A stretch of DNA of 45,583 nt, from assembly GCA_013115135.1 (NCBI GenBank), contig JABANP010000432.1, forward strand, positions 1 to 45,583, in the 5' to 3' direction. The stretch's first letter is position 1. Each line of letters opens with the position of its first letter. Positions 7,305 to 45,583 of the stretch are shown piece after piece. The notes below the pieces were generated by a model, which worked only from the letters and a program-made list of their open reading frames with translations, did no database searches and was not told the DNA's origin. The position numbers and the translations under genes were made by a program. The DNA is from Perkinsus olseni (lineage: Eukaryota; Perkinsozoa; Perkinsida; Perkinsidae).

Positions 7305-7326
7305 GCTAGGTCACCTAGCCTAGGTG
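7305..7326. repeat. Palindromic excision scar, complete
   Basis: T is GCTAGGTG. The 22 nt read T(1-7), full reverse complement, T(2-8) with no mismatch. Confidence 0.9.
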
Positions 7327-7702
7327 GGAAGCAAGCTTCTCCGTTTAAGTAGATCCCCTGAGGAAGCTTTTTCTAGAGCCGGCCGATATCATTGTATACC
7401 GATCGGGGACTCCTAGGAGCGGGGTTTTCGTCGCTTTGCCCTAACTGAACCCTCCTTCAGGCACATAAAGCCAGGGTACACAAGAAGTCGATGCATGACT
7501 GCCTTTCGTGATATACGCTAATCTTCATCTGCCACTGCCTCCTATATATCACTATTACTACCACACTATCAGCCTTCGAGCATCGCCCATCACCTAACGA
7601 CCTCGCCACGAGCTGTTCTGTTCCCGGGCTGATTAGATGCTCGGGTAGAGACTTGATACTCCTTGAGCACGTATACATTAATTTCACTGGTGATGCGCTG
7701 CC

Positions 7703-7724
7703 CTGGACTAAGTCCAGTGGACTT
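7703..7724. repeat. Palindromic excision scar, complete
   Basis: T is CTGGACTT; all 22 positions fit T(1-7), rcT, T(2-8). Confidence 0.9.
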
Positions 7725-8283
7725 AACTCGTCGCCATTCAGGCCTCCAGAAAAGGCTAACTCGAATAAGCCTTGCCTATGAAAAAAGGTAATGATCGAGC
7801 TGCTATGTTGATCTACTGTAGCTGCAAGCATACCACACGTTCCTACCGGGAACGACGTGACCCGAAAAATATCTGTCTACACGTGGACAAATAAAAACCC
7901 TGCTATACAGCCTCTTACAACAGACACAAAAGACAATTGGACTAGTAAAACGGCCATTGCTCGGCCCGAGCAAAATACGTGTGCTGACAGTTGCACGCAG
8001 GCGCATCGGGTGCCAAGAGACAGACTCATATCGCACCGACGTGCGGGAGGCACCACCATAAGGCCGCACATCATAGGATGCACAAGCGATGTTCACGAGC
8101 GACCATCCACAAAAGAGTGATGATCTCTGACTAGCGCCAACAACATCAAGTTTCAATCCTATCTACTAGCTCCACTCTGGAGACAATATTCAAAGGGCGC
8201 TAGGATGTCATTGATCCACACACAACTAGAGACATCGGGCACATGTGTGATATGTCCTAACAAAGCGATAGAAAACCGACTCA

Positions 8284-9772
8284 CTAGGAACCAAGACCTA
8301 ACCGCTTACAGTAGTCGACAGTAGCTTCACTTAGTTTCAAAGCTCCAGCAGCGCCCAGTCTGCCGAAGGAGGGGAATAGTTCGCCATTGTCATTGTAGAA
8401 GACAGGATGAGCCGAGTCGAGTAAATATTCTTTCACATATTCTCTTGTGTGCCCCAGACTGAGCAGAAGTGAGGCAGCACCGACGACTTGCGCCGCGGCG
8501 TTAGCTGCATCGGATCCGTAACCATACCCTCCACTCAAAATACTTGTGGGCAAAGTGGAGAGGACCTTCTCGCCGGGAGCGCCAATACTAACGTAAGGAG
8601 CATAGTTGGTGATATCCGTGAGCTTATCGTCGTTGCTAACGGAGGCCACGCACAGCATATCGACCTCCTCGGCGAAAGCACACGGGTAAATCTTGTTCTT
8701 GCTGATGTCCTTGCCCTCCGAACCAGCACTTGTTACGACCATCGCCCCTTCTGCCACAGCCTCCTGCAGTGCTGACTTGAATATCGCAGAGCGGACAGTG
8801 GCAGTAGACACAATCAAGACCACTTGCGCTCCCGTTTGATAGAGCGTACTCCACAGCACTTACAATGCGAGCAGTAGAAGTTGAAGTACTAGCTCCACCA
8901 AATACCTTCAATGGCATGATCTTTGCTTCCGAGATGCCAGCAATACCAATACTATTGTTGGCCTTGGCGCTTATTATGCCAGCGAGGTGAGTACCATGAC
9001 CAAAAACATCATCAGGGATTGGGTCATTATCGAAGAAGTCGTAACCAATAGTTTTGCCATTCTCATCAGTGTAGATACTAGTGTGGAGGTCCTCATGACT
9101 TTCATCAGTACCAGAGTCAACGATGGCCACAACGACGTTTTGCAGTGGAGTGCCAGAGCTATTCGCCACACTTGCCTGGGACTCCACACTAATGTCAAAA
9201 CCTATCGTCTGCAGATAATGCTGATAAACAGCGAGCGGATCATCCACGTTGACTACTGCCGTTGGAGGGGGCTTCACAAAGGGCGTTGGAGAGGGCGTCG
9301 CAGCCGATAGCTGACGGTTCAGATAGTCGGTACCTTGCTCTCTTTCCCAGGCGTAGTTGGGCTCACACAGAGCTTCAATATCGAGGCTACCGGATGCATC
9401 TTTCGAGTACTGGCACATCTCTTCTCGGGTAGCGTTGCAGTTGATGGATGCGGTATCAATGACCTGCACTCCTACAGTGAACATGCTGTCCACCGCTTCC
9501 TCTTCCGACAAGCAGTCAACAACAGTCTTCTCAGAAGCGCTTAAGCGTCGCCCACCGCCAAGCTGAGCATCCAACATACGCGCCACCGACCGCACATCGA
9601 GGAATGATGAGGGAGACGACTTGCTGGACTTCAAGGACCTCGAGGCGAACGAAGAGGATTTACCTCTGATTGATACGATGGTTTTGCCATCCGCAATATT
9701 GGCGGCAGCTTCTGAGATGACAACTAGCACCGAGATGAAGGATAGTATATGTAGCATGAGGACTTCGACCAT
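8284..9772 (-). pseudogene. Subtilisin-like (S8) protease, frameshifted and lacking catalytic Ser
   Basis: An N-terminal hydrophobic signal (MLHILSFISVLVVISEAAA) and a propeptide-like region precede an S8 domain with catalytic Asp 219 (AIVDSGTDES) and His 259 (FGHGTHLAGI). The frame then shifts by one base near 8830-8836: the first frame ends EYALSNG and the rest (GAQVV, VVTSAG) continues in another frame down to a stop at 8284. The segment that should hold GTSMA reads DAANAAAQVVG, so catalytic Ser is Ala, and AGNEG reads AGSEG, so the oxyanion Asn is lost. No intron with GT-AG ends explains the shift without deleting conserved residues. Probably a secreted protease pseudogene. Confidence 0.8.
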
Positions 9773-10573
9773 TCGCTTTCAAGGCGTAGCAGATGTCAAA
9801 AGGACTGAAGGAGGCGAGCACGGGGCTGTTGTTATCCGCAGCCTCACAAGAATTCCTGGTGTTTACACGACCCGACATTAGCTGGGAGATGCGTCAACCA
9901 AACGTATGTACTTTAGCTCCGTACAGTGTGGCTATTCGAGACGGGGTTCAAGAGTGGTACAAACGGACTCGACGGGAGTTGATCGATTATGAGATTCTCT
10001 AGCGTGAGTTTTAGCTTAGCGTAAGTTTTAGCCTAGAACGCATACCCATGCACGCGAGTGCAAAACGCAGAATGAGGCCAGGTAATCTGGGACTGATGAT
10101 ACACAGTATCAGTAGTTTCAGCGATCATAGTGTGATAGTTGATTAGTACTGAACCAGGTGCTACTTAGCGTATGGTCGTCACTACGATGCCACTATAGTA
10201 CAGGTTTGTAACTCAGTACAGTATGGCTTTTCGAAGCAGGGCTGAAAAGCCAGACTCGTGGGTAGTTGATCGATAATGAGATTGTCTATCGTAAGCTAGC
10301 CTAGCATGACTTCTAGGCTAGACGTTCTAGCTTAGAACGCATACTCAGGCACGCGAGTGCAAGGAGCAGGACGAGGTCAGACGGTTATCTGTGACTAATG
10401 GTTCGGAGTACCCCCCTACGTCTACGCACTTCCCCCTTGTTGGTAACCGGCAACCATGTCATTGCACATCCTTATACTATCTCCTCATATGCGCTTCCAT
10501 GGTGACTTGCGCGTTAAACTTTTTTTACTCACTTCTTCTCCTTTCCCGTAATGCCCAGTGAGCGCGATCAAGG

Positions 10574-10595
10574 GTCGAGGCCCTCGACTCGAGGG
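10574..10595. repeat. Palindromic excision scar, complete
   Basis: T is GTCGAGGG; all 22 positions fit. Confidence 0.9.
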
Positions 10596-10946
10596 TCGGG
10601 ATGATCCCCACATGCAGTTGCGAGTAGCATGCATGCATGCTAGCAGGATGCATCGCTGCTCAGTCGACAAGCCTCACATCAGCAGTCACTGTACAGCTGA
10701 CCCCGCAATTGCCATATAATGACGCTCTACGCTGCTGGTAATGCCTTATCGAGCGCTGCTTGTTCTGGGCGTGATTAGGGTGATAGGCTAGGGTCCGTAA
10801 AGCCTGGTAATGAGTTAAGAGTAGAGTCGAGTCGATACGCGGTAGTAGTTAAGATAATTGCAGCGGTGCTAGTCTAACAGACCACTTTAACGCGCGATGC
10901 CCGGTTATATCGCGGGTCTACGATAGATATCAGGTGCGTGGTTTGA

Positions 10947-10968
10947 ATACCCCTGGGGTATTACCCCA
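10947..10968. repeat. Palindromic excision scar, complete
   Basis: T is ATACCCCA; all 22 positions fit. Confidence 0.9.
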
Positions 10969-11157
10969 ACATCTCTCTTCTCGTGCTGATACTCGGTTCC
11001 AGTACCAATCGCCACAGTCGTACGAGGAAATGAATTCTGTGCTCGCACTTTAATACGCAAGCATAGGAGATAACTCGCACGCATGTAGAGAGGGAGAAAT
11101 CCATGTTGCAGTCTTCTTATTCATATGTAGAGCACAAGGCCAAAAGGAAATTGTGAG

Positions 11158-11400
11158 ATGGATACTGTCACAGTGCACTATAGCTATCGCCCAGACTACT
11201 ATGCACGCATGAACAGGGATGAGCGTAACAAATCTTCTGTATGCTCCTTCTGTAACAAGGGAGCATACAACCATGCTTCGAGTTGCCGCTTTCAGCGCGC
11301 TTATGCCAGATTCCCGTACAGTCTCCCTAGGCAACTATGGTACCGTTTACCGCATTGTGCGGTAGAGTCTACCGTCCCAGTCTGGTTGTGCAGCGTTTAG
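11158..11400 (+). CDS. Short frame with zinc-knuckle-like Cys/His cluster
   Basis: 80-codon plus-strand frame containing CSFCNKGAYNHASSC, spaced C-x2-C-x6-H-x3-C, reminiscent of zinc knuckles in transposase or gag proteins. It lies just upstream of the Ulp1-like frame and runs into the hairpin array, so it may be a remnant of the same element. The spacing is not the canonical CCHC knuckle and the start is arbitrary. Confidence 0.3.
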   Translation: MDTVTVHYSYRPDYYARMNRDERNKSSVCSFCNKGAYNHASSCRFQRAYARFPYSLPRQLWYRLPHCAVESTVPVWLCSV

Positions 11401-11541
11401 TCTACCGGGTAGACTAAACGCTGCACAACCATATGCGCTCCGCGCATGGTTGTGTAGCGTTTCTACACAACGTGCGTTCCACAGCGTTCCTACACAACGC
11501 TACGCTATGTATAGCGTTTATAGCCTATAAATTATAGGACG
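11343..11541. repeat. Hairpin array with 49-nt near-perfect palindrome
   Basis: Consecutive inverted repeats: TACCGCA/TGCGGTA (11347-11364); 24-bp arms around one base at 11383-11431; ATGCGC/GCGCAT; GTTGTGTAG/CTACACAAC; CGCTAT/ATAGCG; then the scar at 11517-11538. The words GGTTGTG and AGCGTTT recur in both orientations, as expected from repeated inverted duplication of one starting sequence. Confidence 0.85.
11517..11538. repeat. Palindromic excision scar, complete
   Basis: T is TTTATAGG; all 22 positions fit. It closes the hairpin array. Confidence 0.9.
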
Positions 11542-12040
11542 CATTCTAGCAGGGTTTCGGAAGCGTGCCTCCTTTTCTATCTCCTTGCCACTTTGGTGGG
11601 CCTGCCGAGCGAAACAAGGAGAAAGATCCGAATCGCGCCCCGCGGTTCGCGGGGAGCGAATAGGTCTGGGATGAGTGACAATACTGCTGCAAACCATTCT
11701 GCTTCGACCTGGATGTCCTTCCGCAACCGAGATGGCCAGGGCATAAGCATGACTGTGGAAGATCGCGACGATTTGATGAAATCCGGGTCCTTGATCTCAG
11801 AAGCCGTTGTGGATGCTTGGATGGCAAAGCTTTGTTCCCAGTACAGGCTTCATTTGCCGTCCAGAGTAGCGGCTGGCTGCTGCAGTACCGGCTTCGATAG
11901 GTTGCCGTCGTCGGTCATCGGAGAAGGGTGCCTTATCGTACAACCGCTGTGTGACCAGGCTGGACATTATTTCGCTGGTTTGGCCGTTAGGGACGGCCAT
12001 ATCTACTCTGCTGTCAGCTTGGGAGTAAACCCTCGAAACA

Positions 12041-12062
12041 GTTCCGGGCCGGAACTTCCGGC
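12041..12062. repeat. Palindromic excision scar, complete; empty in copy 3
   Basis: T is GTTCCGGC; all 22 positions fit. The homologous site at 20759-20766 has only the 8-nt word. Confidence 0.93.
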
Positions 12063-12090
12063 ACTTCCGGAACGTTCGGGCTGTTCGTGA

Positions 12091-12112
12091 CCTGGTTCAA
12101 CCAGGCTGGTTG
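12091..12112. repeat. Palindromic excision scar, complete; empty in copy 3
   Basis: T is CCTGGTTG; all 22 positions fit. Shared with tandem unit 2; the copy-3 site 20790-20797 has the bare word. Confidence 0.93.
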
Positions 12113-12119
12113 GCCTTGG

Positions 12120-12141
12120 ACCGAAACTTTCGGTCCGAAAG
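12120..12141. repeat. Palindromic excision scar, complete; empty in copies 2 and 3
   Basis: T is ACCGAAAG; all 22 positions fit. Unit 2 (13014-13021) has the bare 8-nt word and copy 3 (20805-20812) has it with one substitution, so this is a derived insertion. Confidence 0.95.
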
Positions 12142-12494
12142 TAGAAAGCCTCCCTGTACAGCAGCAAGTGGTCGGCAGCAATCTCGGCGCCCTTCAATGT
12201 GTGGCTTGTCTAACGGAGATCGTCTTTGGTGTCAACCATCCGGAGTTAACAATTTTTGATGAGTCGGCTATGCGCGAGCATGCTGTATCATGTCTGTCCC
12301 GTGGTTTCATAACACGATTTCCACGACTAGTCGCGGTTCCTTCCGGGGTGATATTTGCGGAGAGAAGCTGTTTTTATTCGTACATGATAGTTTCTATAGC
12401 TTATTAGCTTTTCTACTATTGCGAGGAATATTTGAACACAAAATCTGTGTAGCTTTAAAGCACTAGCTTCCTCGCTGTATACACTTACCTGCCA

Positions 12495-12516
12495 CGACTC
12501 AATGAGTCGGACTCAT
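12495..12516. repeat. Palindromic excision scar, complete; empty in copy 3
   Basis: T is CGACTCAT; all 22 positions fit. Copy 3 (21166-21173) has the bare word TGACTCAT. Confidence 0.93.
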
Positions 12517-12793
12517 GGCCCATAGTTACTAAACAACTTGATAATAGCACTCAGTGCCATAGTGACACTGCCACTCACTGAGTGTTGAGGATATGGTAGG
12601 CTGGAAACAACGGGGAGGGGAAAAATTGAGGAACGCTGCTGCAAATCGAGAAAGGCAGATACAGATGATCGTTTGAGAGTCCCCTTCGCACCCGTTAATC
12701 TCATGAGTGTCGTCCCTTTTAGGCCTTGAAGGCGTGTCTGAGAGCCTCGGAGGCTACGGTGGCCGAGAGGAATTGACTTTGATCTATTTTATC

Positions 12794-12815
12794 AGAGCAG
12801 ATTGCTCTGAGCAAT
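12794..12815. repeat. Palindromic excision scar, one base degraded
   Basis: T is AGAGCAAT; first copy ends in G instead of A. The same scar is in tandem unit 2 at 13676-13697. Confidence 0.75.
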
Positions 12816-12984
12816 CCTCGCGAGGGTAACCTATATGTCCGAAAAAACCAAAAGGGACCACCTTCATCGTAGGAAGGGCGCATGAACACTATTCTAGGGG
12901 AACTTGTACAGGCTATGCGTCATTTGGAGTGCTGCTCTCCGAGAACATAGCTCAACGATACGATCTGCAGTTCGGTAATCGTGA

Positions 12985-13006
12985 CCTGGTTCAACCAGGC
13001 TGGTTG
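12985..13006. repeat. Palindromic excision scar (duplicate of 12091-12112)
   Basis: T is CCTGGTTG. Same scar as in unit 1, so it predates the tandem duplication. Confidence 0.92.
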
Positions 13007-13047
13007 GCCTTGGACCGAAAGTAGAAAGCCTCCCTGTACAGCAGCAA

Positions 13048-13305
13048 ATGGTCGGCAGCAATCTCGGCGCCCTTTACTGCGTGGCTTGTCTAACGGAGAT
13101 CGTCTTTGGTGTCGACCATCCGGAGTTAACAATTTTTGATGAGTCGGCCATGCGCGAGCATGCTGCATCATGTCTGTCCCGTGGTTTCATAACACGATTT
13201 CCACGACTAGTCGCGGCTCCTTCCGGGGTGATATTTGCGGAGAGGAGTTGTTTTTTATTCGTACATGATAGTTTCTATAGCTTATTAGCTTTTCTACTCC
13301 TGTGA
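13048..13305 (+). pseudogene. Ulp1-like C-terminal frame, unit 2
   Basis: Reads VGSNLGALYCVACLTEIVFGV and on to SCLSRGFITRFPRL, near-identical to copy 1. The catalytic Cys position is again Leu (NLG for DCG). There is no N-terminal half, so it cannot be a complete domain. Confidence 0.55.
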
Positions 13306-13375
13306 GGAATATTTGAACACAAAATCTGTGTAGCTTTAAAGCACCAGCTTCCTCGCTGTTTACACTTACCTGCCA

Positions 13376-13397
13376 CGACTCATTGAGTCGGACTCAT
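13376..13397. repeat. Palindromic excision scar (duplicate of 12495-12516)
   Basis: T is CGACTCAT; one spacer base has changed from A to T compared with unit 1. Confidence 0.88.
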
Positions 13398-13860
13398 GGG
13401 CCATAGTTACGATACAACTTGATAATAGCACTCAGTGCCATAGTGACACTGCCACTCACTGAGTGTTGAGGATATGGTAGGCTGGAAACAACGGGGAGGG
13501 GAAAAATTGAGGAACGCTGCTGCAAATCGAGACAGGCAGATACAGATAATCGTTCGAGAGTCCCCTTCGCACCCGTTAATCTTTTGAGTATCGTCCCTTT
13601 TAGGCCTTGAAGGCGTGTCTGAGAGCCTCGGAGGCTACGGTGGCCGCGAGGAATTCGACTTTGATCTATTTTATCAGAGCAGATTGCTCTGAGCAATCCT
13701 CGCGAGGTTAACCTATATGTCCGAATAAACCAAAAGGGACCACCTTCATCGTAGGAAGGAAGCATGAACACTATTCTAGAGGAACTTGTACAGGCTATGC
13801 GTCATTTGGAGTGCTGCTCTCCGAGAGCATAGCCCAACGATACGATCTGCAGTTCGGTAA

Positions 13861-14197: not shown

Positions 14198-14297
14198 CTC
14201 TAAAGGAGCTGAGAATGTTATTTGATCAGCAGCAGCAACCACAGCACAATTGAGTACCATTTCTAGCTCCTCCCCACTTGCGTCAGATAGTTATAAC

Positions 14298-14673
14298 TAG
14301 CAAAGGGTAATAGGGGCAACCATCTGATAGGCCAACTCGTACTCCATTTAGCCCTGATAGCTGGCGTCTCACCTAGTGGCGCAAAATCCGCCCATAACAA
14401 CTGCCCGAGAGAGCTCGACTTCGTCGACGAGAAATTGGGACTTAGAATACAGTAATAGTAGAGTACCCGCTAGTGTTCCATGATAGAACACTGAGAACAG
14501 GTCACTTCAACACTAATAGAACTCCTATCAATGTTTGCAATAGCATGAAACGCCACGCTCAGTCCACCATGGAGCGCGGGTCTAAAGTCCCCTTTCATCA
14601 CTTATGCCAGTAGTCTGACAGGAAGCATGGTAGGGAGTATCCATGAAGAGTAGCTGGAATAAAAGACCGTGCG
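14298..14673 (-). repeat. Inverted block of copy B
   Basis: Reverse complement of 3046-3425 with clean junctions: GTTATAAC then TAGCAAAGGG on the left, GACCGTGCG then GTGATGAATTC on the right. Confidence 0.9.
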
Positions 14674-14840
14674 GTGATGAATTCGGGTTCCGAAAGCTAT
14701 GTATTAGATCACAGAATGATGGGTGTAGTATGCCAATCGTCATTGCGCATAATATTACTATTACTGTTATTGTCTCCATCAGGTACATACCGAACAAGTA
14801 CGAAATAATAGGCCATTATTATTGGGTCCATCATTGAAAG

Positions 14841-15230
14841 GAGCAGCACGAGCGGCAGAAGCACAAGTTGATGGCAGCACAGGGCAGCCCGTTGAATGCT
14901 ACTGGAGATTATGCAGCTGACAAGACTGATGCTTAAGACGATGATCTAGACGGAGGTAGGATCAATAACGTCGTTATTGACGACATCGTTATTATAACGA
15001 TAGGGATAGGATATAGCCATTAGGGATATCTCAGGGTAGTGTTATCGTTTTCAGGTCATAACGATAATACTACAACTATCATACTACGCGGTCATCTATT
15101 TGATTCACAATTGGTAAACTCAGTATTGGATATTGTTGAAGAGCATAAGAGTGTAGCACATGATGTGCTACCCTCAGTAGGCTACGTTCGGGGTACATCT
15201 GGCGACCGGCCTGCTACAAGCTGGACTTAG
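14841..15230 (+). pseudogene. LOR/SDH-like fragment, copy B, broken
   Basis: Homologous to 3593-3981. The first exon has an in-frame TAA at 14934-14936 and the second exon (from 15055) stops at 15228-15230. Between them lies an insertion with palindromes TCAATAACG-t-CGTTATTGA and ATCGTTAT-t-ATAACGAT that copy A lacks. Confidence 0.4.
14962..15001. repeat. Twin odd palindromes specific to copy B
   Basis: 9-bp arms around one base (14962-14980) and 8-bp arms around one base (14985-15001). Copy A has neither, so both arose after duplication. Confidence 0.8.
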
Positions 15231-15955
15231 CCGCAGGGGTATCCTTGCTTCTGAATCTGACCTATGCACCGACCGAGATGCATGGGATACGGGGACTGAT
15301 TCCTCCATATTATTGTCTCGTGTCATGAGTGGCTTTTAGATGACTCTAGAGTTGAGTGACAGTCAATTAGTAGACTTGGCATTGTTACGTTATATCTCGC
15401 AACGCACTCGTCATGCATTATGCAGTTAGTATATACTCTCATGGAAACTTAGTTGACTTGATGAGTGATGATGAGTCAGAGTCAAGATGCTGTACGATGC
15501 ATCTTGTGCGGACTCATCCAATACTAAATGCACCATCATCCTGTAGGCCCTATCATTTGTAGGGGCTGCCATAAGTTCTGGTGAATGCTTACGGATCGAC
15601 CTTTTTCTGTGAATGTATTAAATACCTGATATTAGCTGCTTGAGTATATCACCCACAGCTAGCTCAGATCCCAAATCGATTCTGAGTAGTCGGAGTCTCG
15701 GATTCGAAGGCTGTGGTCCCCTCTTCTAATGACAGAAGTGTATGCTGGACCAGGTAACATCTTGTTACCAGCGTGAGACCGAGGCCGACTACATTCAGGA
15801 ATGTGTTCTGAGTCCGACTTCAGACGCGAAGTTAAAAAATATTCAAGTCACAGTGACTTGCTCACCACTGATCATCCACCAGTCGAAAATGCGAATCTTA
15901 TCTACGCAATTCAGTTCAGAACGCAACCCCACATGGATTCAGTTTTTTCTGACCA

Positions 15956-16413
15956 ATGGCCACGGAGGATGCAGAAGGTATGCGGATGATCCATCCGGGA
16001 CGAAAAGACTTTCTCGTCATTTCTCGTTGGTAGTGAATGTCTTCTCATTCTCAGTTGAGAGAGTCGTCGCCTTTGTGAGGCGGCGACGTCCAGAGATTCT
16101 GGCTGCGGATTCGAGCCTTCCACCTCGAGCGGTGAGTCTGATGCTTCTCAAAGAGTGGGCAGAGTTGCGAGGGTAAGTGGGTAGAGTCTTGTGGATTATC
16201 CACTGCTCTCACGGAGTCGCGAATTCGGCAATCTATCTTAGTGTACTTTTCAGTGAAGAACCCAATGGTCCTCATGATGTACTATCACTGAATATTGTGC
16301 ATCGTTATCATGTATTGTGCATCCTTACCAGATACATATCGGGCGAATGCAAGACTGATGCTCAAGACGGTATTGTAGACGGAGGTACAATCAATAACAC
16401 AACATTAAAGTAA
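15956..16413 (+). CDS. Small HMG-box-like protein, copy B, open third exon
   Basis: Exons 15956-15977, 16055-16172 and 16254-16413. HMG-like half box: VERVVAFVRRRRPEIL, AADSSLPPRAVSLMLLKEW. Exon 3 stays open to 16413 because it lacks one A found in copy A, but the tail (GEEPNGPHDVLSLNIVHRY) does not resemble an HMG third helix. Whether copy B is the ancestral reading or a chance open frame is unclear. Confidence 0.45.
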
Positions 16414-16819
16414 AACCGTCTGACCCTCATGCATCAGCATCGTCATGCTACACATGTGCTACTATCATCAGGAATCATACTAATGACGCCACTGCTGCCA
16501 CTACTGATGATGAATAGTGATAGAATCATCATGGTCATCGGTCGAGATGGTTAGCATCCACTACTATGAGACTTTTTAAACAGTTTTTATACACGTCATC
16601 ATTGTCATCATCATTATACTCGACAGGTTTGTTGTCGTTATGATCGGAGCTATGATCGCGGGTTTTCTTGTCGCTCGCAGCTATCATCATCATCGTCCAT
16701 AACAATGATAGTAGTCATTCTTGTTATCATAATCATCAATGGTTGTGTTATTAGTGTGGTATACATCAATAACATTGCCGTCTACGACTGTTGTCGTCGT
16801 TCGCATCATCATCAGTACC

Positions 16820-17729
<910 letters not shown>

Positions 17730-18451: not shown

Positions 18452-18473
18452 GGGTCTGACAGACCCGGTCTGT
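18452..18473. repeat. Palindromic excision scar, complete
   Basis: T is GGGTCTGT; all 22 positions fit. Confidence 0.9.
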
Positions 18474-18535: not shown

Positions 18536-18557
18536 ATGGTCAATGACCATTGGTCAT
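18536..18557. repeat. Palindromic excision scar, complete
   Basis: T is ATGGTCAT; all 22 positions fit. Confidence 0.9.
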
Positions 18558-18746
18558 GTGTAAATGACAACACATAGACGATACAATTCTCCGCGGCTAT
18601 TGGTTACTACCCAATACTTCAGGAAGCATAATGCTGAACGTCTCCATGATTCATCATCATCCGTTCTGAGAGCGCCGTTCTTGGTGTTCAGGGCATTTAC
18701 GATTGATTGAGAATGCTCTCACGGCAGTCGTGCCAGAACTAGTGTG

Positions 18747-18768
18747 TCTCATAGTATGAGGCTCATAC
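18747..18768. repeat. Palindromic excision scar, inner 20 nt exact
   Basis: T is TCTCATAC; inner 20 nt exact, second spacer G where A is expected. Confidence 0.85.
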
Positions 18769-19613: not shown

Positions 19614-19635
19614 CTGATGAATCATCAGTGATGAT
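19614..19635. repeat. Palindromic excision scar, complete
   Basis: T is CTGATGAT; all 22 positions fit. Confidence 0.9.
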
Positions 19636-20184: not shown

Positions 20185-20206
20185 ATATTCGTCGAATATT
20201 ATTCGA
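20185..20206. repeat. Palindromic excision scar, complete
   Basis: T is ATATTCGA; all 22 positions fit. Confidence 0.9.
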
Positions 20207-20468: not shown

Positions 20469-20490
20469 TTCGATACTATCGAATCGATAG
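20469..20490. repeat. Palindromic excision scar, complete
   Basis: T is TTCGATAG; all 22 positions fit. Confidence 0.9.
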
Positions 20491-20742: not shown

Positions 20743-21078
20743 TTGGACGGTGAAAACAGTTCCGGCACTTTCGTTCGGGCTGTTCGTGACCTGGTTGGCC
20801 CTGGACCGAGAGTAGAAATCCTCCCTGTACAGCAGCAAGTGATGAGCAGCAACCTCGGCACCCTTCACTGTGTGGCTTGTCTGACGGAGATCGTCTTAGG
20901 TGTGGACCATCCGGAGTTGACAATTTTTGATGAGTCGGCTATGCGCGAGCATGCTTTATCATGTCTGTCCCGTGGTTTCATAACACGATTTCCACGACTA
21001 GTCGCGGCTCCTTCGGGAATGATATTTGCGGAGAGAAGTTGTTTTTATTCGTACATGATAGTTTCTATAGTTTATTAG
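20743..21078 (+). pseudogene. Ulp1-like C-terminal frame, element copy 3, scar-free
   Basis: A continuous 111-codon frame runs from SSGTFVRAVRDLV through LPVQQQVMSSNLGTL to SCLSRGFITRFPRL. It lacks the scars that break copy 1, so it shows the earlier arrangement. The Cys position is Leu here too. Homology continues untranslated to about 21190. Confidence 0.6.
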
Positions 21079-21439
21079 CTTTTCTACTCTTGTGAGTAAT
21101 ATTTGAACACAAAATCTGTGTAGCTTTGAAGCACCAGCTTCCTCGCTGTATACACTTACCTGCCATGACTCATGGGCCATAGTTACAAAACAACTTGCTA
21201 TGTCTTCCAAACTCATCAGTAGTCGAGTAAACTGCTTTTTGTAGTCCTCTGAGGACGCTTCACTTTTGCAAGGAATAGAACAGAGCGGGAGCAATTTCGT
21301 GGCGAACAGGGAACAAGTTGCAGGAGGTTCCTTTCCGTAATGAGCCTCATTGAATTCAGTCTTCTGTGGCAGTTTTTCAGCTTAGGCAAAGGCGCGTGAG
21401 TTGCAATTATTGTATTAATATCTTTAAAAAAGAGTCTTT

Positions 21440-21776: not shown

Positions 21777-21798
21777 GTCGCTGCCAGCGACTCGCTGG
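21777..21798. repeat. Palindromic excision scar, complete
   Basis: T is GTCGCTGG; all 22 positions fit. Confidence 0.9.
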
Positions 21799-21929: not shown

Positions 21930-21951
21930 TTATGGGGCCCATAATATGGGC
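21930..21951. repeat. Palindromic excision scar, complete
   Basis: T is TTATGGGC; all 22 positions fit. Confidence 0.9.
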
Positions 21952-22398: not shown

Positions 22399-22420
22399 GT
22401 TGAGCTGCTCAACTTGAGCA
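22399..22420. repeat. Palindromic excision scar, complete
   Basis: T is GTTGAGCA; all 22 positions fit. Confidence 0.9.
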
Positions 22421-22761: not shown

Positions 22762-22783
22762 CGTCCGACTCGGACAGTCCGAG
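22762..22783. repeat. Palindromic excision scar, inner 20 nt exact
   Basis: T is CGTCCGAG; inner 20 nt exact, second spacer A where G is expected. Confidence 0.85.
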
Positions 22784-26300: not shown

Positions 26301-29300
26301 CTAGCTTTGAGTAGCTGGCTAACCTGATCGCACCAAACACCAGTCGACATCTGCACGACGATGAGACTCAATACCGTCGAGTTGATAGAGTCTCGTTGCC
26401 AACCATCAGTTTCCTACCTGCTGGTCAACACACTCCTGGCTGACCTTCGCCATTTTATTAACTGCCAAGCGGATATCATTGAGGTGCCTGGCCACTCCTT
26501 GAGAAGCTTGAGCGAGCTTATCATCCAATCTCCCTTCCATCGCCTCGAGATGGCCTAAAGATGCCAAGCAGGGCACTGCTGGGTCCAAGCCACGCAGGAT
26601 TAGACCCCTGCCTACCATTCATCGCCCTCCGCTTCTCCTCCTCTTCCTCTACGAGGCCAGCGATGCGTCGTTGCAGATTCTCCTCTCGCTGTGCTCCCTC
26701 GTTGGCCACATGTTGTCGATTCTACCACACCTCCGTCAGTTCCACTCAAATGTCCGCTTCACCTCTTCAGCTGCCCGATCGATGGCTCCTCTTGCACTGT
26801 GCTTCGACCTTCCTTGTCTCCTCCCGTATTTTCGCGTCGAGAGCTCCTCTCTGCTCAACGATCGAGTCTCGCAATCTTCTACAAGCATCCGAGACCTCCG
26901 ACACTCTACCCTCCCACTGCCGCTGCCAGTCAGTGAATCTGCCAGTGGCGGGAACGTTGTCACTACTGATGACCAACACTAGACGGCCATACCGTTTATT
27001 ATCATCATCCCCACCGGCGTCTAGGCGAGCTGCCAAGCCTGCTACCATTCCCTCGAGCCGGGACACTTCTGACGCAAGGAGCTCTCTCGTCTGCCCAACA
27101 CTCTTCGTAACAGCCGCTGAGGTTGCCTCCACCTCCTGCATAGAGAATACACACTGGAAGACCGACCCTTGTGCAGTGGACGTACTTCCCTCAGTCTCCG
27201 CTCGAGCTGTTCCAAGTTCTCTTTCCCCGCGATCGAGATATCACCCAACCTCTCACCCAGGTCCTGGATTCTATCACAACACTCGTCGTGGTTCGAGGCT
27301 ACAGTTGATGTCAGACTGCCGAGCTTATCATCAACATATCTGACCGAGGGATCCAATAATAACAGGAACGCAGCAGAGGACCATCAGCACCTGCTCAGCC
27401 GATCGGCCCGCTCTGCATCATCCGCCGACCTCCTCTGCATCTTCCTCTTCATAGAGTCTAGTTGTTTCTGTATCTCGCGGGTACTGGTGACCTACTCCAC
27501 CGTAGCTCATCCACCTCATAACGGAAGGCTACTACTTGTGATGCCGCAACGCCTTTGATGGCGTCCCGGAAGGAGGCAGCCAGGCTGTGGCACTCCTCCG
27601 CCCTCTGGGAGGCCTCCTTCGCAAGAGCATCACTGAGAGCTTGCTGAGCCGCCGATACCTCCTTTCCGAGTGCCCCTCAGAGACTCGAGCATCGTTACCT
27701 GTACGAACAGGTGAGCGGTACATGACGATGAGGGCATCTGGTGCACACATGGGTACCTCGAAGGTCGCCATCTTCTCCAGGATATCACCCCTTCATTGCC
27801 TTGGCTTGGTCTGCATTGAAGCTCCTCCCATGAACCTCCGCTATAACCCTCGATAGGGTCTAATATGAGGAAGTGGGCACCTCCGACTACAGCAGCTCCG
27901 CACCTCCAGCTGCTGTGAAGCCTGCATTGCTGATCTCGTTGCAACTCTCGAGTCAGCACCAGCCGACTCTACTCTCCCCTAGAAGAGAAGAGCTATTCAC
28001 AACTCGATGAGTCCGGTCACCTCCAAGGCAGCTAGAGACTTCCTCAGCTCGGCCACTTGAGTCGTGGTCGTATCACGTAGTTCCGTTGTAGCGGCTTCGG
28101 ACCGGCGCTGCTGTTCGGATGTCAGAGTTCGTATGAGGCTGACGAGGTCATCATGCATCAGCCGTACTGCCTGAGGACAGATCTTTGGGTGAGTGAGAGT
28201 CAGTTTACGAGGAACCCCACCTCCTCCCTTCCCTTAGTAGACTCTGCTACTGCCGTCTCCCGAGCTCTAGCCACAGTCCCTTCCATCTCGGTTCGTGCAG
28301 ATAATAACTGATGATCGGAGGAGTCGAGCAGGCCAACCAGGGTCCTCTCTCCCTCACCAATGCAAGTGAGGTCGTCGTATCGTCGTGCCACCTCGAGAGA
28401 GCATGCCTCCTTCACTGCAGCTACTTGCCGTGATACAAGGCTAGTCACAGCGGCAGCATCCAGAGAAGAGGGACTTCGCGGTCCTACCCTCCGAAAGATC
28501 TCCACCTACACCACCAATCAGTCGGTTTCCTCCCAGTATTCCTCCCGAGGTACCTTTGCCGTCCCTCTCCATGATGCTGTCCATTTTACCTCCAACTCCC
28601 AACAGGCCGACACTCAATCGACTCATCTGCTCCCTCAACTCCGCCAATACTTCCCCTTGCTCTTCGACGGTCGTCATCAGACCATCTGCCAACATGCTAG
28701 GCAAAGACATCTACAGAGCCCCCTACTCTGAGCGATCATCTTCTGTGCGATCGCCTCCACTCTATGGTCCGCCATCCCTTCGGTCTCGGCTTCGATGGCT
28801 GCCACCCGAGTCCGCAGATCAACCTGCGCTCTACTCGCACCGCGCAGCTGCCGAGCCATCGTTGTGAACTCGGTACGGGCCTGCTCGTTTATCTAAGACG
28901 CCAAGGACGCCGTCTCTCATATCCCCAACCACTCGTATACAATTATCACCAACAACTACTGCAACGACTACAAAGGTACTCCTGCGTGTTAACTAGGGTG
29001 TACGTGATTGATGTCCCCTTGCAGACGGTACTGACGTTACCATTGATATTTGCCTCTGGAGCTTCCTCAATAGCTGCCCGTCAATCTGGTTCTGGGCATC
29101 CATCCTCTCCCCAACAGCCTCCAACCTGTCCTCTTGCTTCTCCAAACGTTCCACTATGTACGCCATCTGTAAAAGTACATTGTGTAACGAAGGAATGCTG
29201 CACGAGGCCGCTAGCATAGCACCGCTATGCCATGCTAGTAGCATGATGCTACAGCAACAGCACCGATGCATAGGAGCCTCAATTTCGTATACGGCTTAGC

Positions 29301-31621: not shown

Positions 31622-32290
31622 GATGGTCTAAAATAACAGAATCTTTAGTGGGGAGGTCTCACAAAGCAAGTCCGGTGGCTGGAGACAGGTTGGCAAGAGG
31701 GGCACTATCATAAATTCCAATACGGAATATCATCACCGTCCACTACAGGTGACAGGAAATTATTGAGCGATATCTATGAGGCTTAAACCTAATACTAGGC
31801 CCCTCGTTTGAGTATCGGCATTGAGGATGAGCATCTGCCCATCTCTTCTCAGCACAGCGGGCTAGGACTGCTCGAAGTTCTTAGTAGCTCTGTTACGACA
31901 ACCCGTCTTTGCGCTGATGCCGCGTCGTAATCTTGCCTCACTAGCTCATCTTGCATTTCCTCAACGACATCAGTGTACTACGCAACTTGTTCAAGAGCAT
32001 GTGGACTGGGGACCTTTGCCGTGATCTAGTCGTACCTGTGACATACGTTGTTGATTGTAGTGAGTGCCTACGCGACACTCACTGCCATAAACCTAAGTCT
32101 TAGGTCCTAAGATGCTTCTAACTTCAAAGTTCTAAGTAGCAGGTCCTCCGACGACTGAAGCGAGCGACAAGGCGCCGCCGTAAAGGCGGTAACATAGCAA
32201 GCTCTTCAGCGAGAGCAGCGGCATCGCGGTGCACGAAACCTCGCAAAGTCATTTGTATGTACTCGCAGTTGTTGTTGTTATTAACTCTTA
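31622..32290. other. Intergenic region between divergent TMBIM and SLC35F6 genes
   Basis: Should hold both promoters; no recognisable core element. Contains a hairpin with 8-bp arms (AGTGAGTG/CACTCACT, about 32060-32084), a complete scar (32091-32112) and CCGCC/GGCGG near 32175. Confidence 0.5.
32091..32112. repeat. Palindromic excision scar, complete
   Basis: T is ACCTAAGA; all 22 positions fit. About 180 bp upstream of the SLC35F6 start codon. Confidence 0.9.
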
Positions 32291-33876: not shown

Positions 33877-33898
33877 ATTGAGGTCCTCAAGTTGAGGC
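33877..33898. repeat. Palindromic scar, inner 20 nt exact, outer bases differ
   Basis: Word TTGAGG appears as direct, inverted, direct with one-base spacers, but neither outer base pairs with its spacer, so it fits the 6-nt rather than the 8-nt form. Confidence 0.7.
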
Positions 33899-34293: not shown

Positions 34294-34315
34294 TATGAGA
34301 TTCTCATAATGAGAA
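34294..34315. repeat. Palindromic excision scar, complete
   Basis: T is TATGAGAA; all 22 positions fit. Confidence 0.9.
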
Positions 34316-34567: not shown

Positions 34568-34679
34568 CTGAAAAGAAGACAAGACCATAAATCACCGACG
34601 GTGTGTGCCAAAGAATCAGCCGCCTTAAATTTTCCGTATTTTTTTGTAGCGGGAATCGCTCTGTTCAAATAAATCTAAG

Positions 34680-34862: not shown

Positions 34863-36268
34863 TTGTCGCTGAAGATGCATCGGACTTACCGTCCAATTGC
34901 GTGGCTTCGCTTTGGCCTTCTTTGGGCGACCCATAGAGTTTAAAACTTCAGTATCGTTCCAGCTCATGTCTCCATCGATCTTTTTCCCTAACGCGTCTCT
35001 GACCTCACTGGCGTGATCGCCGATATGCCCTCAGACCAATCATGAAGAATGGAATAGCGAATGGTCCTCATCGTGGCGCCGGAAACGCACTATATGTGGA
35101 CGCTTTCGTCGTCATGTCCATCACGCTAGCCACAGATTTGCAGGCGAAACTGTCTTCGGTGCCTCTGATGATCTGAGTCTAATCGAAACTTTCGATGCCT
35201 TGAGACGCCATTCCGCGTCACGCCTTCGCGAGAATCAAATCGACGCAGAATTCACTTCATCCGTCCTCCTCCGTCCAATCATTCGTGATCTCACTGAGGT
35301 CCTGTGGCGAAGCTTTTCTGCGACGTCTAGTGGATGATCTACTATAGATCAGGCTCTCGACAAGTGACTTGTGATCGACTACGCCTGGGCGCCCTCCAGC
35401 GCCAGCCCGAGTTAAACGTGATTAGCGGGGCTGAACAGTTAGCAGTCTTCTCATAGCTCATCGAAATTCTCCGTAGTCAGCCCGAACAGTGCGAGCCCGT
35501 ACAGTGAACGACGACGCTCCTCTGTTTCGCCGCGAAATTTTCGCGATCATTTTCAGTCCTGCAAACCGTGTTCGCCTCTCAGTCACGAGTCTCTCAGTTG
35601 GTTCAGCGTCGCTGGTGAGAAGTCCCTCTAGGTATAAATTCGATACGACGCGATCAGAAAGACCAGTTTTGATAGAGAACCAGATTCTCGAGAGATCCGG
35701 TAAGTCGATCAACATCCGACTCCATATAAGGCGATATCCGTCTGACTCCGTCGAGCTCTTTCGCACGTTGCAGTCCGTTTATCGTCAAAGTATCCGGTGA
35801 CGCGGGAGAACGCTCTCAGTTAGACTCCTTGGGTTAGGAGAGTGGGGTGTGGGTTGAAGCTTGTAGGCAATGCTGTGTAAACTGTCCCATATGATTTCAC
35901 TTTTCCAGTATACACAATCTACGCTGAAGCCTTCGGTAAGTTAGGTAAACTTCGTATTCCTGAACTGTCCTCTCCTCTCTCAGTTGTTGCGTCATCACCA
36001 CTCGGAGTGGTCCACTCCGAGCGCGTTGAGTCAACGTGGAAAAAAAGCCGGAAGGTGAGAAACTCTGAGCCCTCCTCAGCGATCGAAAGCCTGTGATCCC
36101 GGCAGCTCGGTCAACCTCCGATGGGAGGATCGTGAACCCGATGCCCGTTCGGCATATGGTGTCAATTTACGCGAGTACGGTGATTTCATGTGGTGTAGTC
36201 ATCATAATTCGTCGTTACTCGGTAACACAATAACTGCAATATAATTGAATAGCAACCTATGATGGTAT
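34863..36268. other. Unresolved region with long frames on both strands
   Basis: A plus-strand frame without ATG is open over roughly 35035-35340 (contains RRKRTICGRFRRHVHH and DDLSLIETFDALRRH). 35458-35800 is open on both strands. 36002-36022 is an odd palindrome with 10-bp arms (CTCGGAGTGG-t-CCACTCCGAG). I recognise no family; decayed element sequence is possible. Confidence 0.35.
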
Positions 36269-40344: not shown

Positions 40345-41044
40345 CACAAAATAAACAAGAACACCAAAAATGCTGAACTAACCGTCTACAGTTGTCGCCT
40401 CTTCTTGGCAACGGGTCGTATTCCATTAACCCTGTGGCATCGGCAACGCGAGCCCTGGCCAAGCTGTCACATTCCGTGAGAGTGCAGGGAGGAAGGCTCC
40501 CAGCGTCAGGTGTGGGAAGTAACTCCTACATATGTCTGTTCGAATCATCTGGCCGAAAGCCACTGAATAGTTGTGTTCCCCAAAGCTCATGAAGGAGACC
40601 TTCAGCCAGTATCCTCGAACGGGCCACTGTGAAGCATATTCCGCAGACCCTATCTTGCTCCGATAAGATGCTACGCTGAAGCTAACCTACATCGCTGATG
40701 ACAATAAGACAGAAGATAAAAGATACGACTCTAGACGGCAAAACTCGGATTTTGTGTTCACAATCAGTCGGTCTCAAACACTTACCCTGGGCACAACCCG
40801 AGCCACAAGCGAGCCACATGCCCCTAGAGAAGGCTATCACATACCCCCTCAAGACAGTGCTCAGGCGGGAATCGGTCTCTCGGACGGAGGCGTCAACAAC
40901 GACAGCGACAAAACCGAAATGTCGCGCGCCACGAATTTATCCCACATAAACGGTAAAACCTCATCCACAGCCGAAACAGAGCGATAATAATAATAATCAT
41001 ACAGAGAGAACACCTGTCGCGATTTCGCGCGCCATAAAATTCCG
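40345..41044. other. Intergenic, nothing recognised
   Basis: Upstream flank of DOLPP1 and downstream flank of the phosducin-like gene. Several overlapping short plus-strand frames, none family-like. A short AATAATAAT run near 40986. Confidence 0.45.
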
Positions 41045-42232: not shown

Positions 42233-42408
42233 CCAACGAAGTGAATTCCGAGATACGGCGACTAAACCAGTAGTAGTAAATAACTTGTACTGAATGAAAA
42301 AATCAGGGTGGCCGGACGGCCTCCTGACCGCTGAATAATAATAATCATCCCAGAGACCACGATCTCGTCCAGCTCACGAGAAGCTACTGGAGGATTGCAG
42401 ATCTTGGA

Positions 42409-42430
42409 CAAGCAAATTGCTTGAAGCAAT
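42409..42430. repeat. Palindromic excision scar, complete
   Basis: T is CAAGCAAT; all 22 positions fit. Confidence 0.9.
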
Positions 42431-43010
42431 TGTGAGCGGAGCGGTAATAATTTAGTGGCGCGTGACGGATACTCGATAGCCCCTGTTGTCTTGCCCCTCT
42501 GTGCTTACATGAATATCCTCCCACTCTGTCGTTCCCGGTACCAAAGCCATTATCAAACTAACCTATGACCATCACCCCATCAAAAGCCGGTCCGTATCGA
42601 CACCTTGCTGAGTCGGAAACTCGACTCCAAGAGCAGTTCAGAAACAACACGCAGCACATGCAAAGCACAAATCGATCATCACCACCACCAACCGTTTCAT
42701 TACAGCGTAATTCGTGTTGGTAATTTTTGTAACTTCAATCCGGCCCCGGAGAGCATCCAAGCCTTGCTCGGTTTCTGCGCTTTGAAGAAGTTCTCCCCGA
42801 TGTACTGGAATGTGTCGAGTGCGCACTCTCTAGCGTTGAACTAACATGAAAAATACATCCTTCGGGGATCGAACCTGGGACCTCCGACCTTCGTAGGATC
42901 GGAGTATTGATCAGCGTCTCCCTGCGCCATATGCCGCTCCCTGAAGTCCCGCAAAGCAATGAATCTAAGGTCGAAGCATGAGATACACAAAATATATCCT
43001 CGGTATTCGG

Positions 43011-43032
43011 CCATACCAGGTATGGCATACCT
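43011..43032. repeat. Palindromic excision scar, complete
   Basis: T is CCATACCT; all 22 positions fit. Confidence 0.9.
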
Positions 43033-43295
43033 GCTCATTCGTATCATATCGATTCTCCTAGACTTCAACGTCACTCGTCTCCAATGCCAGAACGGCACCT
43101 GAGCGGAGCGAAGAAAATTCAAAAGACTTCGACTGCTAAGCCGATCGATCGGACACGCTTGTTAATATCCACCTCCCGTCCTACTACCTGCACTATCCTG
43201 TATCCCATCGCTTTGAGTATACGCTCCTCCAGACGACGTGTGGCGAGCTTATCAAACGATGACCTGGGGATGATCGAGCCTTCCAGCATCACACA

Positions 43296-43317
43296 AGACG
43301 GAGTCCGTCTGACGGAC
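43296..43317. repeat. Palindromic excision scar, complete
   Basis: T is AGACGGAC; all 22 positions fit. Confidence 0.9.
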
Positions 43318-43520
43318 CGCACACTGGGGAAGAAGAAGTCCCATTGAGCAACACCCCTCCACATGGAGCTAGCAGAACCCCCCTGGAGAGACGTGAAACG
43401 GGTGATGGGTTATTCTATCGACCCCCTCGATGCTCTGCCACAACGAGTGTATCAACCCTAGCGCCTGTGGAAAGGCAGACCACGAGCAAAGACGAGGGGT
43501 AAATGGAGATACACCAGAAG

Positions 43521-43542
43521 CCAACGTGATGTTGGCAACATC
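43521..43542. repeat. Palindromic excision scar, one base degraded
   Basis: T is CCAACATC; first copy reads CAACGT. Confidence 0.75.
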
Positions 43543-43875
43543 GATCCGATAAGAGGAAGCAACGAGTCCACCCTGCTCCACCCCCAGTACTACCCGTAGT
43601 GTCGATCGAAGTTGTTGCACTCCCAGATCAGCCTCCTATCCCTCTCTAGGATATCAAAAGTGAAGGGGCCTCGTCGGGCTCGAACGAAGTGAGCAACCTT
43701 CAATTTACCTGAGGCGACCGTAGTCAACATCAACAGTGCGAGTCTATCAAAGCAATTTCTGGTATGAAAGGCCAGTCGGAGATATACCGGAGAAGTTGGG
43801 CAAATGAGTTTCCGGCTTGGGGCTGATAGAGCTCCACTTCCTTCAACTCTCGCGGAGGCTCTCGAATTCAAGAGC

Positions 43876-43897
43876 GGATATAGTATATCCGAAATAC
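43876..43897. repeat. Palindromic excision scar, one base degraded
   Basis: T is GGATATAC; last copy reads GAAATA. Confidence 0.75.
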
Positions 43898-44342
43898 ACG
43901 TTTAGATGAGGTAGAGGGGCTAAGGAACGCCTCATGAATATTGAGGAGAGCTCCTAGTCTAGGAGAGATCTCCTTTCAAACTCAACACAGATGATGAATA
44001 AGACACGTCCAAAATGAAGGAGACTCATTTTTGAAATGCAACATGGCATCGGAGAGTTCGAAAACTCGGAATTCTCTCGAGATGAGACCGAACCGAATCG
44101 GTTGCACATATGCAGAAGCTAGAGCTCCTGCATCCAGAAAGTGATTACCACAATCACTAGCAGGAAATTCGTCGAACCGCTAGCATCACTGTCACAATCG
44201 GCTACTTTGCCAACTCGAGTGAGAGATCCTTCATGGACCTAGAACAACCATCCGGCTGTTTGGCGATGACAACGCCATGAAAAAGCTTGCATTGAACGAT
44301 CTTGCATGATGTAATCCCCACCCCTTACGCCCTTGCGAAGGC

Positions 44343-44364
44343 AAACTGGCTCAGTTTAACTGAG
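44343..44364. repeat. Palindromic excision scar, one base degraded
   Basis: T is AAACTGAG; first copy reads AACTGG. Confidence 0.75.
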
Positions 44365-44679
44365 TGAGCCCTGCCGCGGTGAAGACCTTTAGTTCCAGAT
44401 CAGGGAACTCCCGCGAGGCTTCGCTCAAAAAGTCTTGTAAGAACCTACTTACATCCTCTCATTTAGTACTGTCATCCTCTCATCCCGGTCATATAGATTT
44501 CCGGGCAACTCTACGAAGGCATTGATAACCTTTCGAACTTTCCATATCAAGGCTGCTATGAATCTTTCATTCCCAGCCTTCACCGCGGCCTCAATGGAGC
44601 GCAGAGAGGATCCCTCCAACTCGGGCCACGAGTCATTTTCCGCCCCGACTTGGCCAACACACCCTAATATATAGACCAT

Positions 44680-45583
44680 CGACGATGGCCATGATCGTTG
44701 ACGGCCCTATTTCGTTCAAATTAAGGCCATGATCATTGACAGTACAACATTCAAGGAGCTGGGGAGCTGGTGAACTCGCCTCCTCCACGGGCCGTGGACC
44801 ACGGCCGTTCAATTTCGGCGATCGCAGGGACGGTAGGTCAGGTAATCAGTCGACTTGACACAGCATGCATCAAGGGGAAATCCTAAGGAGTGCGATTCAG
44901 GAGGTTACTTGGAAAGAGAGATATCTCTTCCCCTCCTTTCATCGCGATTTTTCTCGATGGCTTAATTTTTCTGACGCCATATGTCTACTAATATTCTTTA
45001 AATACAAAAACTTCCCCTAAGAAGGAATACCGGATCTTCTTCAAAATCGCAACACTCCTGTAAGGAGTCGAACACCCGGAAAAGAGGCACTCCTTCCCCG
45101 CGTGTTAGATCAGATTTTCAACTTGGTCGCCCTCTCCGAGTATTACGTAGTATCACGCTTAGTTGTGTTATGAACTTTGGTAGGCGTAGAGGGTGGGCAT
45201 CCTCGGGGTACTTCTCCACTGCTCTGTCCGCCTCCATATCTATGCGATGGACTCTACGAAGTGCGATCTTGGCGTTACCCGAGGGCGAGCGTATCTAAGG
45301 TCGGAGCATGGCAAATGCAGATATTAGCAAATACCCAAATGTCGGACTAATGCATGGCATCCACCGACTTCAGACTATGATTGGCGATTCTTGCGGGCAA
45401 CCATAACTAATAGCAAACTAAGGCTCGAGGTCCATCCCCCACCCACATTACAGGTCCTCCCGTAGACAATATCTCAGGTGGGCCCTCACAAGGAGTAGCC
45501 GATTATGTGCCGCTCTGTGTTCCACAAACCAGCTGTCACCAACACCACCATCCCCCAACCGAGTGATGATCTCTTCAACCAAA
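44680..45583. other. Window end: short direct repeat, one scar, no gene
   Basis: GGCCATGATCGTTGAC and GGCCATGATCATTGAC repeat at about 44687 and 44726. A palindrome AGAGATATCTCT lies near 44918. No frame of note. Confidence 0.45.
44784..44805. repeat. Palindromic excision scar, complete
   Basis: T is TCCACGGC; all 22 positions fit. Confidence 0.9.

Follow-up and report, generated by a model that had tools for sequence, protein, structure and literature searches.

How does one 22-nucleotide (nt) layout come to be written again and again into a single stretch of genome, almost every time in different letters? The question is raised by a contig of Perkinsus olseni (JABANP010000432.1 of assembly GCA_013115135.1; C371), which we analysed over its full 45,583 nt and call the window; the genome comprises 61.5 megabases (Mb) in 968 contigs. 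The layout, T(1-7)+rc(T)+T(2-8), consists of an 8-nt word T without its last base, the reverse complement (rc) of T, and T without its first base. We consider it highly likely that each such site is the healed excision footprint, or scar, of a departed DNA transposon of the hAT superfamily.

An exact scan of the window for word lengths 4-13 found 28 units with T = 8 and zero with T = 5, 6, 7, 9, 10, 11, 12, or 13; for T = 4 there were 22 units vs. ~11 expected from simple arithmetic. The full 22-nt unit did not occur in 100 random sequences matching the window's dinucleotide frequencies. A looser core (a 6-nt word, one base, the word inverted, one base, and the word direct again) was present at 33 window loci with 31 distinct T, and it occurred once across 100 random sequences of the same dinucleotide make-up. 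At these 33 loci, 60 of the 66 spacer bases were complementary to the base flanking the far copy, which puts the complement of the base beside each inferred element end at the spacer, with an offset of one base; the 28 exact loci satisfy this offset on both sides by definition. The 22-nt layout in the window is real. When up to two mismatches were allowed, 69 window positions matched (28 with none, 21 with one, and 20 with two; a few overlap), against five matches, each with two mismatches, summed over 10 random sequences. Since mismatch-bearing copies exceed the random level, older, decayed units are present alongside fresh ones. As identities of the units, known RNA families and tRNAs were rejected, the window having no Rfam match at the gathering score and no tRNA found by ARAGORN; a tandem-repeat scan ruled out simple tandem repeats as their origin.

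Units also occur beyond the window, where they were counted in sequence without N (79 units in locus L027 proved to be an artefact of a 100-N run). We sampled 200 kilobases (kb) as twenty 10-kb stretches from nine other contigs, picked from hAT-domain search results and hence not random. This sample held 35 exact T = 8 units, unevenly spread at 0-10 per stretch. It held six units for T = 5 (vs. ~3 expected by arithmetic) and a single one for T = 6, with T = 7 and 9-13 unrepresented. Extrapolation to 61.5 Mb gives ~10,800 exact units; the standard error of this estimate, calculated by hand from the between-stretch spread, is about one third, and the estimate rests on a nonrandom sample whose selection bias could go either way. 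Twenty hAT-domain loci (60.8 kb, some of them mutual copies) contained 32 exact units, and the paralogous contig C588 contained 17 in 18.5 kb. Placement was uneven with respect to reading frames as well. Stop-free frames of at least 150 amino acids make up 34% of the bases in the window and the sample but contained only 4 of their 63 units, an avoidance that fits harm from a 14-nt insertion in coding sequence.

These scans bear on an earlier, sequence-only reading of the window. Its 27-29 core loci and its 50 of 54 determined spacers were borne out, the actual numbers being slightly higher. The range that it gave, 7305..44805, covers most of the loci and leaves one exact locus, at 5579, outside. 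The word-length scan with its controls left standing its claim that the true unit is an 8-nt word: T = 8 dominates and is the only length clearly above chance in the window and the sample. We also agree that a fixed length of 8 suggests an enzyme.

What the event does to DNA can be read between paralogues. The window has segmental duplications, and C588 is a rearranged near-copy of much of window 2.1-26.5 kb and may represent another haplotype or a duplicate that has diverged. In five paralogue alignments (93-98% identity), 14 nt was the most frequent gap among those of at least 4 nt. The fourteen 14-nt gaps, in a count that enters some loci twice through overlapping alignments, comprised 12 exact units, one unit with one mismatch (18743), and one non-unit; one 17-nt gap was a unit too, shifted by the aligner. 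There were 13 distinct candidate presence/absence sites, with the unit in one copy and an apparent single word in the other. Under a stricter check, for which the other copy had to carry 15 flank bases, T, and 15 flank bases with at most three mismatches in 38, 12 of the 13 sites were confirmed; the unscarred copy held T at 10 of them and T with one substitution at 2. Presence/absence at 12041, where the surroundings have diverged, was unconfirmed in this 38-nt check. The confirmed sites thus define the event as a change from T to T(1-7)+rc(T)+T(2-8), with a net gain of 14 nt. Derivation from an 8-base-pair (bp) target duplication agrees with T = 8 being the only length clearly above chance and with the single T in the unscarred paralogues (12 of 13). 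The net +14 nt of the earlier reading was therefore seen directly, but its description as a 14-nt insertion holds for the net gain only, which was probably not made in one step but through the arrival and departure of an hAT element.

Several duplications within and around the window were noted. A tandem duplication (12085-12978 and 12979-13860, 94-95% identity) with a dispersed third copy at 20760-21200 supplied several of the comparisons of scar and single word. A segmental duplication of ~2.8 kb (3425-6235 and 14673-17452) has 89% identity, and near it lies an inverted stretch (3041-3430 vs. 14293-14678). C588:1-17629 (L041, L042) has 88-97% identity in long matches to window 2.1-26.5 kb. 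Another contig, C620 (92%), is too diverged from the window for a clean reading, yet it shares the scar at 44784. For locus L039, whose ten scars all lie at 1156-2784, the parts aligned to contigs C263 and C306 are free of exact scars in both copies.

The scars of the window are as follows (strand given as '.' throughout; exact loci from the scan allowing at most two mismatches).

5579..5600 (.), exact scar, T = ATCAGCAC; at 16811 the paralogue carries the word once, with one base substituted, across a 14-nt gap
7305..7326 (.), exact scar, T = GCTAGGTG
7703..7724 (.), exact scar, T = CTGGACTT
10574..10595 (.), exact scar, T = GTCGAGGG
10947..10968 (.), exact scar, T = ATACCCCA
11517..11538 (.), exact scar, T = TTTATAGG; same T scarred in C588 too
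12041..12062 (.), exact scar, T = GTTCCGGC; 14-nt gap vs. the copy at ~20.76 kb, flanks diverged, unconfirmed as above
12091..12112 (.), exact scar, T = CCTGGTTG; also at 12985 and in one C588 copy; the counterpart near 20.79 kb and in another C588 copy is a single word
12120..12141 (.), exact scar, T = ACCGAAAG; both C588 and the tandem copy (~13.01 kb) have the word once
12495..12516 (.), exact scar, T = CGACTCAT; shared by 13376 (one mismatch); at ~21.17 kb the word stands once, with one base substituted
12985..13006 (.), exact scar, T = CCTGGTTG; tandem copy of 12091
18452..18473 (.), exact scar, T = GGGTCTGT
18536..18557 (.), exact scar, T = ATGGTCAT
19614..19635 (.), exact scar, T = CTGATGAT; same T scarred in C588 too
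20185..20206 (.), exact scar, T = ATATTCGA
20469..20490 (.), exact scar, T = TTCGATAG
21777..21798 (.), exact scar, T = GTCGCTGG; C588 has the single word, across a 14-nt gap
21930..21951 (.), exact scar, T = TTATGGGC; same T scarred in C588 too
22399..22420 (.), exact scar, T = GTTGAGCA; same T scarred in C588 too
29231..29252 (.), exact scar, T = CATGCTAC
32091..32112 (.), exact scar, T = ACCTAAGA
34294..34315 (.), exact scar, T = TATGAGAA
34490..34511 (.), exact scar, T = ATCTGGAA
35997..36018 (.), exact scar, T = ACCACTCC
42409..42430 (.), exact scar, T = CAAGCAAT; overlapping a larger 108-nt gap vs. C620
43011..43032 (.), exact scar, T = CCATACCT
43296..43317 (.), exact scar, T = AGACGGAC; at a 33-nt gap vs. 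C620
44784..44805 (.), exact scar, T = TCCACGGC; same T scarred in C620 too
13376..13397 (.), scar with one spacer changed; tandem copy of 12495
18747..18768 (.), scar with one change, T = CCTCATAC; C588 has the single word, across the 14-nt gap at 18743
22762..22783 (.), scar with one change, T = TGTCCGAG or CGTCCGAG
33877..33898 (.), scar with changes at both spacers, from the mismatch and core scans
35524..35545 (.), scar with one change, T = (G/A)TTTCGCG

The words themselves carry a preference. Among 159 distinct T with no or one mismatch, taken from the window and the other loci analysed and symmetrised, positions 2 (T) and 7 (A) departed most, at 39% each; the binomial p-values count every word twice and so overstate significance. 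The hAT element Hermes prefers targets of the form nTnnnnAn (PMC6900584, PMC10368747, PMC2803484). The scar words follow this form weakly, T2 and A7 still being their strongest positions. That the units have 'no consensus', as the sequence-only reading put it, is thus right in that the words differ nearly everywhere, but it passes over this weak, hAT-like preference.

Elements of the expected kind occur in the genome, which contains at least 21 matches to the hAT dimerisation domain. One family has two copies, identical at 99.8% over 1.9 kb, with a long open transposase frame containing DUF4371 and Dimer_Tnp_hAT; one copy lies between exact 8-bp repeats of TAGGGCTT, and the other lies between those of CCTGATTC. 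A second group has ends like TAGAGATGGGCA, and a motif taken from these ends has 16 matches in the genome. One copy of this group is flanked by GTCCGGAG on both sides, and a copy with less perfect ends lies between two GTCTGATG. The genome therefore has both an hAT transposase and elements with 8-bp duplications. At locus L004 (1968-1992), the right GTCCGGAG duplication of an hAT element continues into head-to-tail repeats of its first seven bases, of which L015 has fewer. At L013 (1953-1974), an exact scar stands at the extreme end of an hAT element, apparently within its terminal repeat.

How might such an element leave this product? Starting from what was read directly (the product, the fixed length of 8, the one-base offsets, the single T in paralogues, the site preference, and hATs with 8-bp duplications), we infer the intermediate, the repair route, and the mechanistic steps at any given site from the sequence and from published hAT chemistry. 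An hAT element would insert with an 8-nt stagger, giving T-element-T. On excision, the transposase would nick the DNA at a distance of one base beyond each end of the element; attack on the other strand by the freed 3′-OH would cap the left flank as the hairpin t1..t7-t8'-t7'..t1', while the right-flank hairpin would read t8'..t2'-t1-t2..t8. With this hairpin geometry, the complements t8' and t1' would fall exactly at the two spacers. The host would then open both hairpins off the tip, leaving 3′ tails with t8'..t1' on the left and t1..t8 on the right, which would be fully complementary over 8 nt because both come from the two copies of T. Once the tails had annealed over these 8 nt, trimming of the surplus and filling of the gaps would give T(1-7)+rc(T)+T(2-8), net +14. 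Openings a and b bases from the tips would make the tails overlap in complementary sequence whenever a+b > 8; annealing, trimming, and filling would then lead to one 22-nt product irrespective of a and b. Direct joining of short tails would yield other footprint classes.

Published accounts of hAT excision describe the parts of this course. The non-transferred strand is cut first, and its freed 3′-OH forms the flank hairpin (PMC6900584). For Ds footprints, the best-fitting cleavage point is described as the nucleotide beside the insertion (PMC1978519). Ac/Ds footprints include palindromic insertions centred on the complement of the element-adjacent base, with putative microhomology (PMC5873905, PMC1978519). 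In Saccharomyces cerevisiae, palindrome arms reach up to 20 nt and putative microhomology is found in 88-89% of footprints (PMC5873905), and in one Arabidopsis study, 11 of 17 excisions from one site had a common footprint (PMC1978519). As for the repair proteins, the P. olseni genome has one match to an SNM1/Artemis/Pso2-type domain, one weak match to Ku, and nine matches to family-A DNA polymerase, which suggests that such proteins are present and does not indicate the pathway in use.

Several observations weigh against this origin. Ac/Ds footprints in Candida albicans are mixed, with 28 types among 128 excisions (PMC5873905), and a comparable mixture was not found here, a discrepancy that concerns the repair outcome and not the cleavage. 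We counted the classes with other numbers of inverted flank (P) bases for (a,b) up to a+b = 10, with one random control each; they stayed near control level (e.g., 6 vs. 4 for one P base per side), so that no other counted hairpin-footprint class was clearly above chance, and deletion footprints are not recognisable by these scans. In the few available paralogues, no site was occupied by an element in one copy while the other copy had a scar or the single word. Among the element duplications, four in all, GTCCGGAG alone agrees with nTnnnnAn at positions 2 and 7; we therefore assign none of these element families as the maker of the scars. Known elements are also few relative to scars (16 end-motif matches and two copies of the other family), which implies either that elements leave readily or that short non-autonomous ones were missed. 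A search for 8-bp duplications with terminal repeats gave nine candidates, of which only the two hATs rose above background. TcBuster, another hAT, prefers nnnTAnnn, a preference that the 159 scar words do not show; set beside Hermes, it indicates that hATs are not uniform in target choice. Finally, given the Ku and SNM1/Artemis/Pso2 matches, a loss of ordinary end joining cannot be claimed for Perkinsus.

A number of candidates were rejected along the way. Six-nt tandem duplications, considered as a second footprint class, stood at 540 vs. 61 in the control and fell to 54 vs. 42 once simple repeats were removed. A 324-nt insertion (L017 vs. L019) and a 635-nt insertion (C588) had no 8-bp duplication by eye, and an automatic search of paralogue insertions found no case with one. 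Two candidate empty or scarred sites around hAT elements turned out on reading to be junctions with unrelated DNA. The remaining seven of the nine duplication candidates were not distinguishable from background as elements.

Other superfamilies with 8-9 bp duplications (MULE, Merlin, P, KDZ) could in principle have left the footprints. MULE transposase domains do occur in the genome (38 matches, 32 of them above the family cut-off), and Merlin remnants are reported in Perkinsus marinus, with 8-9 bp duplications in other hosts (PMC8101967). However, the MULE Muta1 is described as making duplications of either 8 or 9 bp with no apparent sequence preference and, when duplications are present, as excising precisely in ~90% of cases (PMC5225508), whereas the scars lack T = 9, show the T2/A7 preference, and are an imprecise +14 product. 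Moreover, that product requires flank hairpins offset by one base; hairpins on the flank are documented in hAT elements and V(D)J recombination, and the term hairpin is absent from the Muta1 account (PMC5225508). On this comparison, for which the genome was searched for MULE domains, we regard this source as improbable.

A one-step mutation without any transposon, in which template switching or fork reversal copies eight bases back and forth, is more doubtful still. The product can be expressed as two template switches, and no element was present at any scar site examined. Yet template switching should produce a spread of lengths and offsets, whereas units of T = 5-7 and 9-13 are missing or close to chance, and counts of other spacer combinations do not rise above it; nor would it favour T2 and A7. 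We give equally little credence to a domesticated hAT-like transposase that cuts chromosomal sites and leaves the unit without a mobile element. The rarity of known elements relative to scars would suit it, and Kat1, a hairpin-forming domesticated hAT transposase, is described in yeast. Against it, a cut at a lone T does not supply each end with the complete T that it needs unless an element had been inserted or an extra fill-in step took place, and ordinary hAT elements occur in the genome. An assembly or sequencing artefact (hairpin adapters, foldback reads) might be palindromic as the unit is, but it is scarcely credible for scars that are common to diverged paralogues (12091, 12985, C588), decay by point mutation, avoid long reading frames, and favour certain bases.

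An hAT origin places the scars among known systems with related chemistry. The target duplication of Ac/Ds is 8 bp. The footprints of Ac/Ds, Tam3, and other hATs are like the scars in their target duplication, in the complement at the element-adjacent base, and in their inverted flank bases from opened hairpins and microhomology joins (PMC5873905, PMC1978519). Footprints at a single Ac/Ds site often mix short deletions with P insertions of varied length, whereas in Perkinsus one product with the full 8 nt inverted, spread over a natural genome, is the sole hairpin class clearly above chance. Hermes and hobo share the 8-nt target, the nTnnnnAn preference, and hairpins on flanking DNA, but the preference is weak in Perkinsus, at 39% for each position. 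In V(D)J recombination, coding ends are capped as hairpins and opened off-centre, giving inverted repeats of the end bases (P nucleotides); the ends are mutually unrelated, with no built-in 8-nt complementarity, and the joints vary. The Perkinsus ends, in contrast, would be two copies of one word, although the flank-hairpin chemistry is common to hAT and V(D)J (PMC6900584). In mPing excision, the target duplication likewise guides repair, but that repair is described as precise (PMC4561436), whereas the Perkinsus tails would anneal and leave +14 nt.

Apart from the scars, the window has few long frames. The frame at 32291-33427 matches transporters of the nucleotide-sugar/DMT type, with protein identities of 97% in P. 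olseni, 84% in P. marinus, and 79% in Perkinsus chesapeaki, and a partial subtilase gene (Pfam Peptidase_S8) lies at 8636-9772 on the minus strand. A repeat of ~130 nt at ~40640-40780 has matches in 28 contigs (76-83% identity), with same-orientation pairs ~593 nt apart in four contigs. Another repeat of ~125 nt (~11104-11232) has ~77% matches in six other contigs, in three of which same-orientation pairs lie ~581 nt apart. At 17410-17544, a perfect (TCG)8 is followed by a (GTT)37 microsatellite, which is far shorter in the paralogue near 6.2 kb.

The chemistry is already known; what is new is the uniformity over many sites and the natural accumulation. Among the papers listed in searches of mostly open-access literature, no title or abstract opening described the uniform unit or a genome-wide scar set, in Perkinsus or elsewhere. 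The identical product may already be among the Ds footprints from yeast and Arabidopsis (Yu 2004, Lazarow 2012, Huefner 2011). A broader proposal, about which we are evenly divided, is that repair of hAT breaks in Perkinsus is nearly deterministic: hairpins would be opened far from the tip, the tails from the duplication would zip together, and each excision would leave the same +14-nt scar, some ten thousand of which would be kept as a log that outlives the transposons and enlarges the non-coding DNA.

If the hAT origin is correct, the scars record former positions of hAT elements. Excisions, normally invisible, would become countable and mappable with no element remaining, by a scan for T(1-7)+rc(T)+T(2-8), and their approximate age could be judged from decay and from which paralogues carry the scar. 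Hairpin opening and end joining, processes usually studied at single reporter sites in yeast or plants, could be read in a protist from one product that occurs naturally and in large numbers. A source would also be named for small palindrome-forming insertions in non-coding DNA, and the same scan would be applicable to any eukaryotic genome that bears hAT elements.

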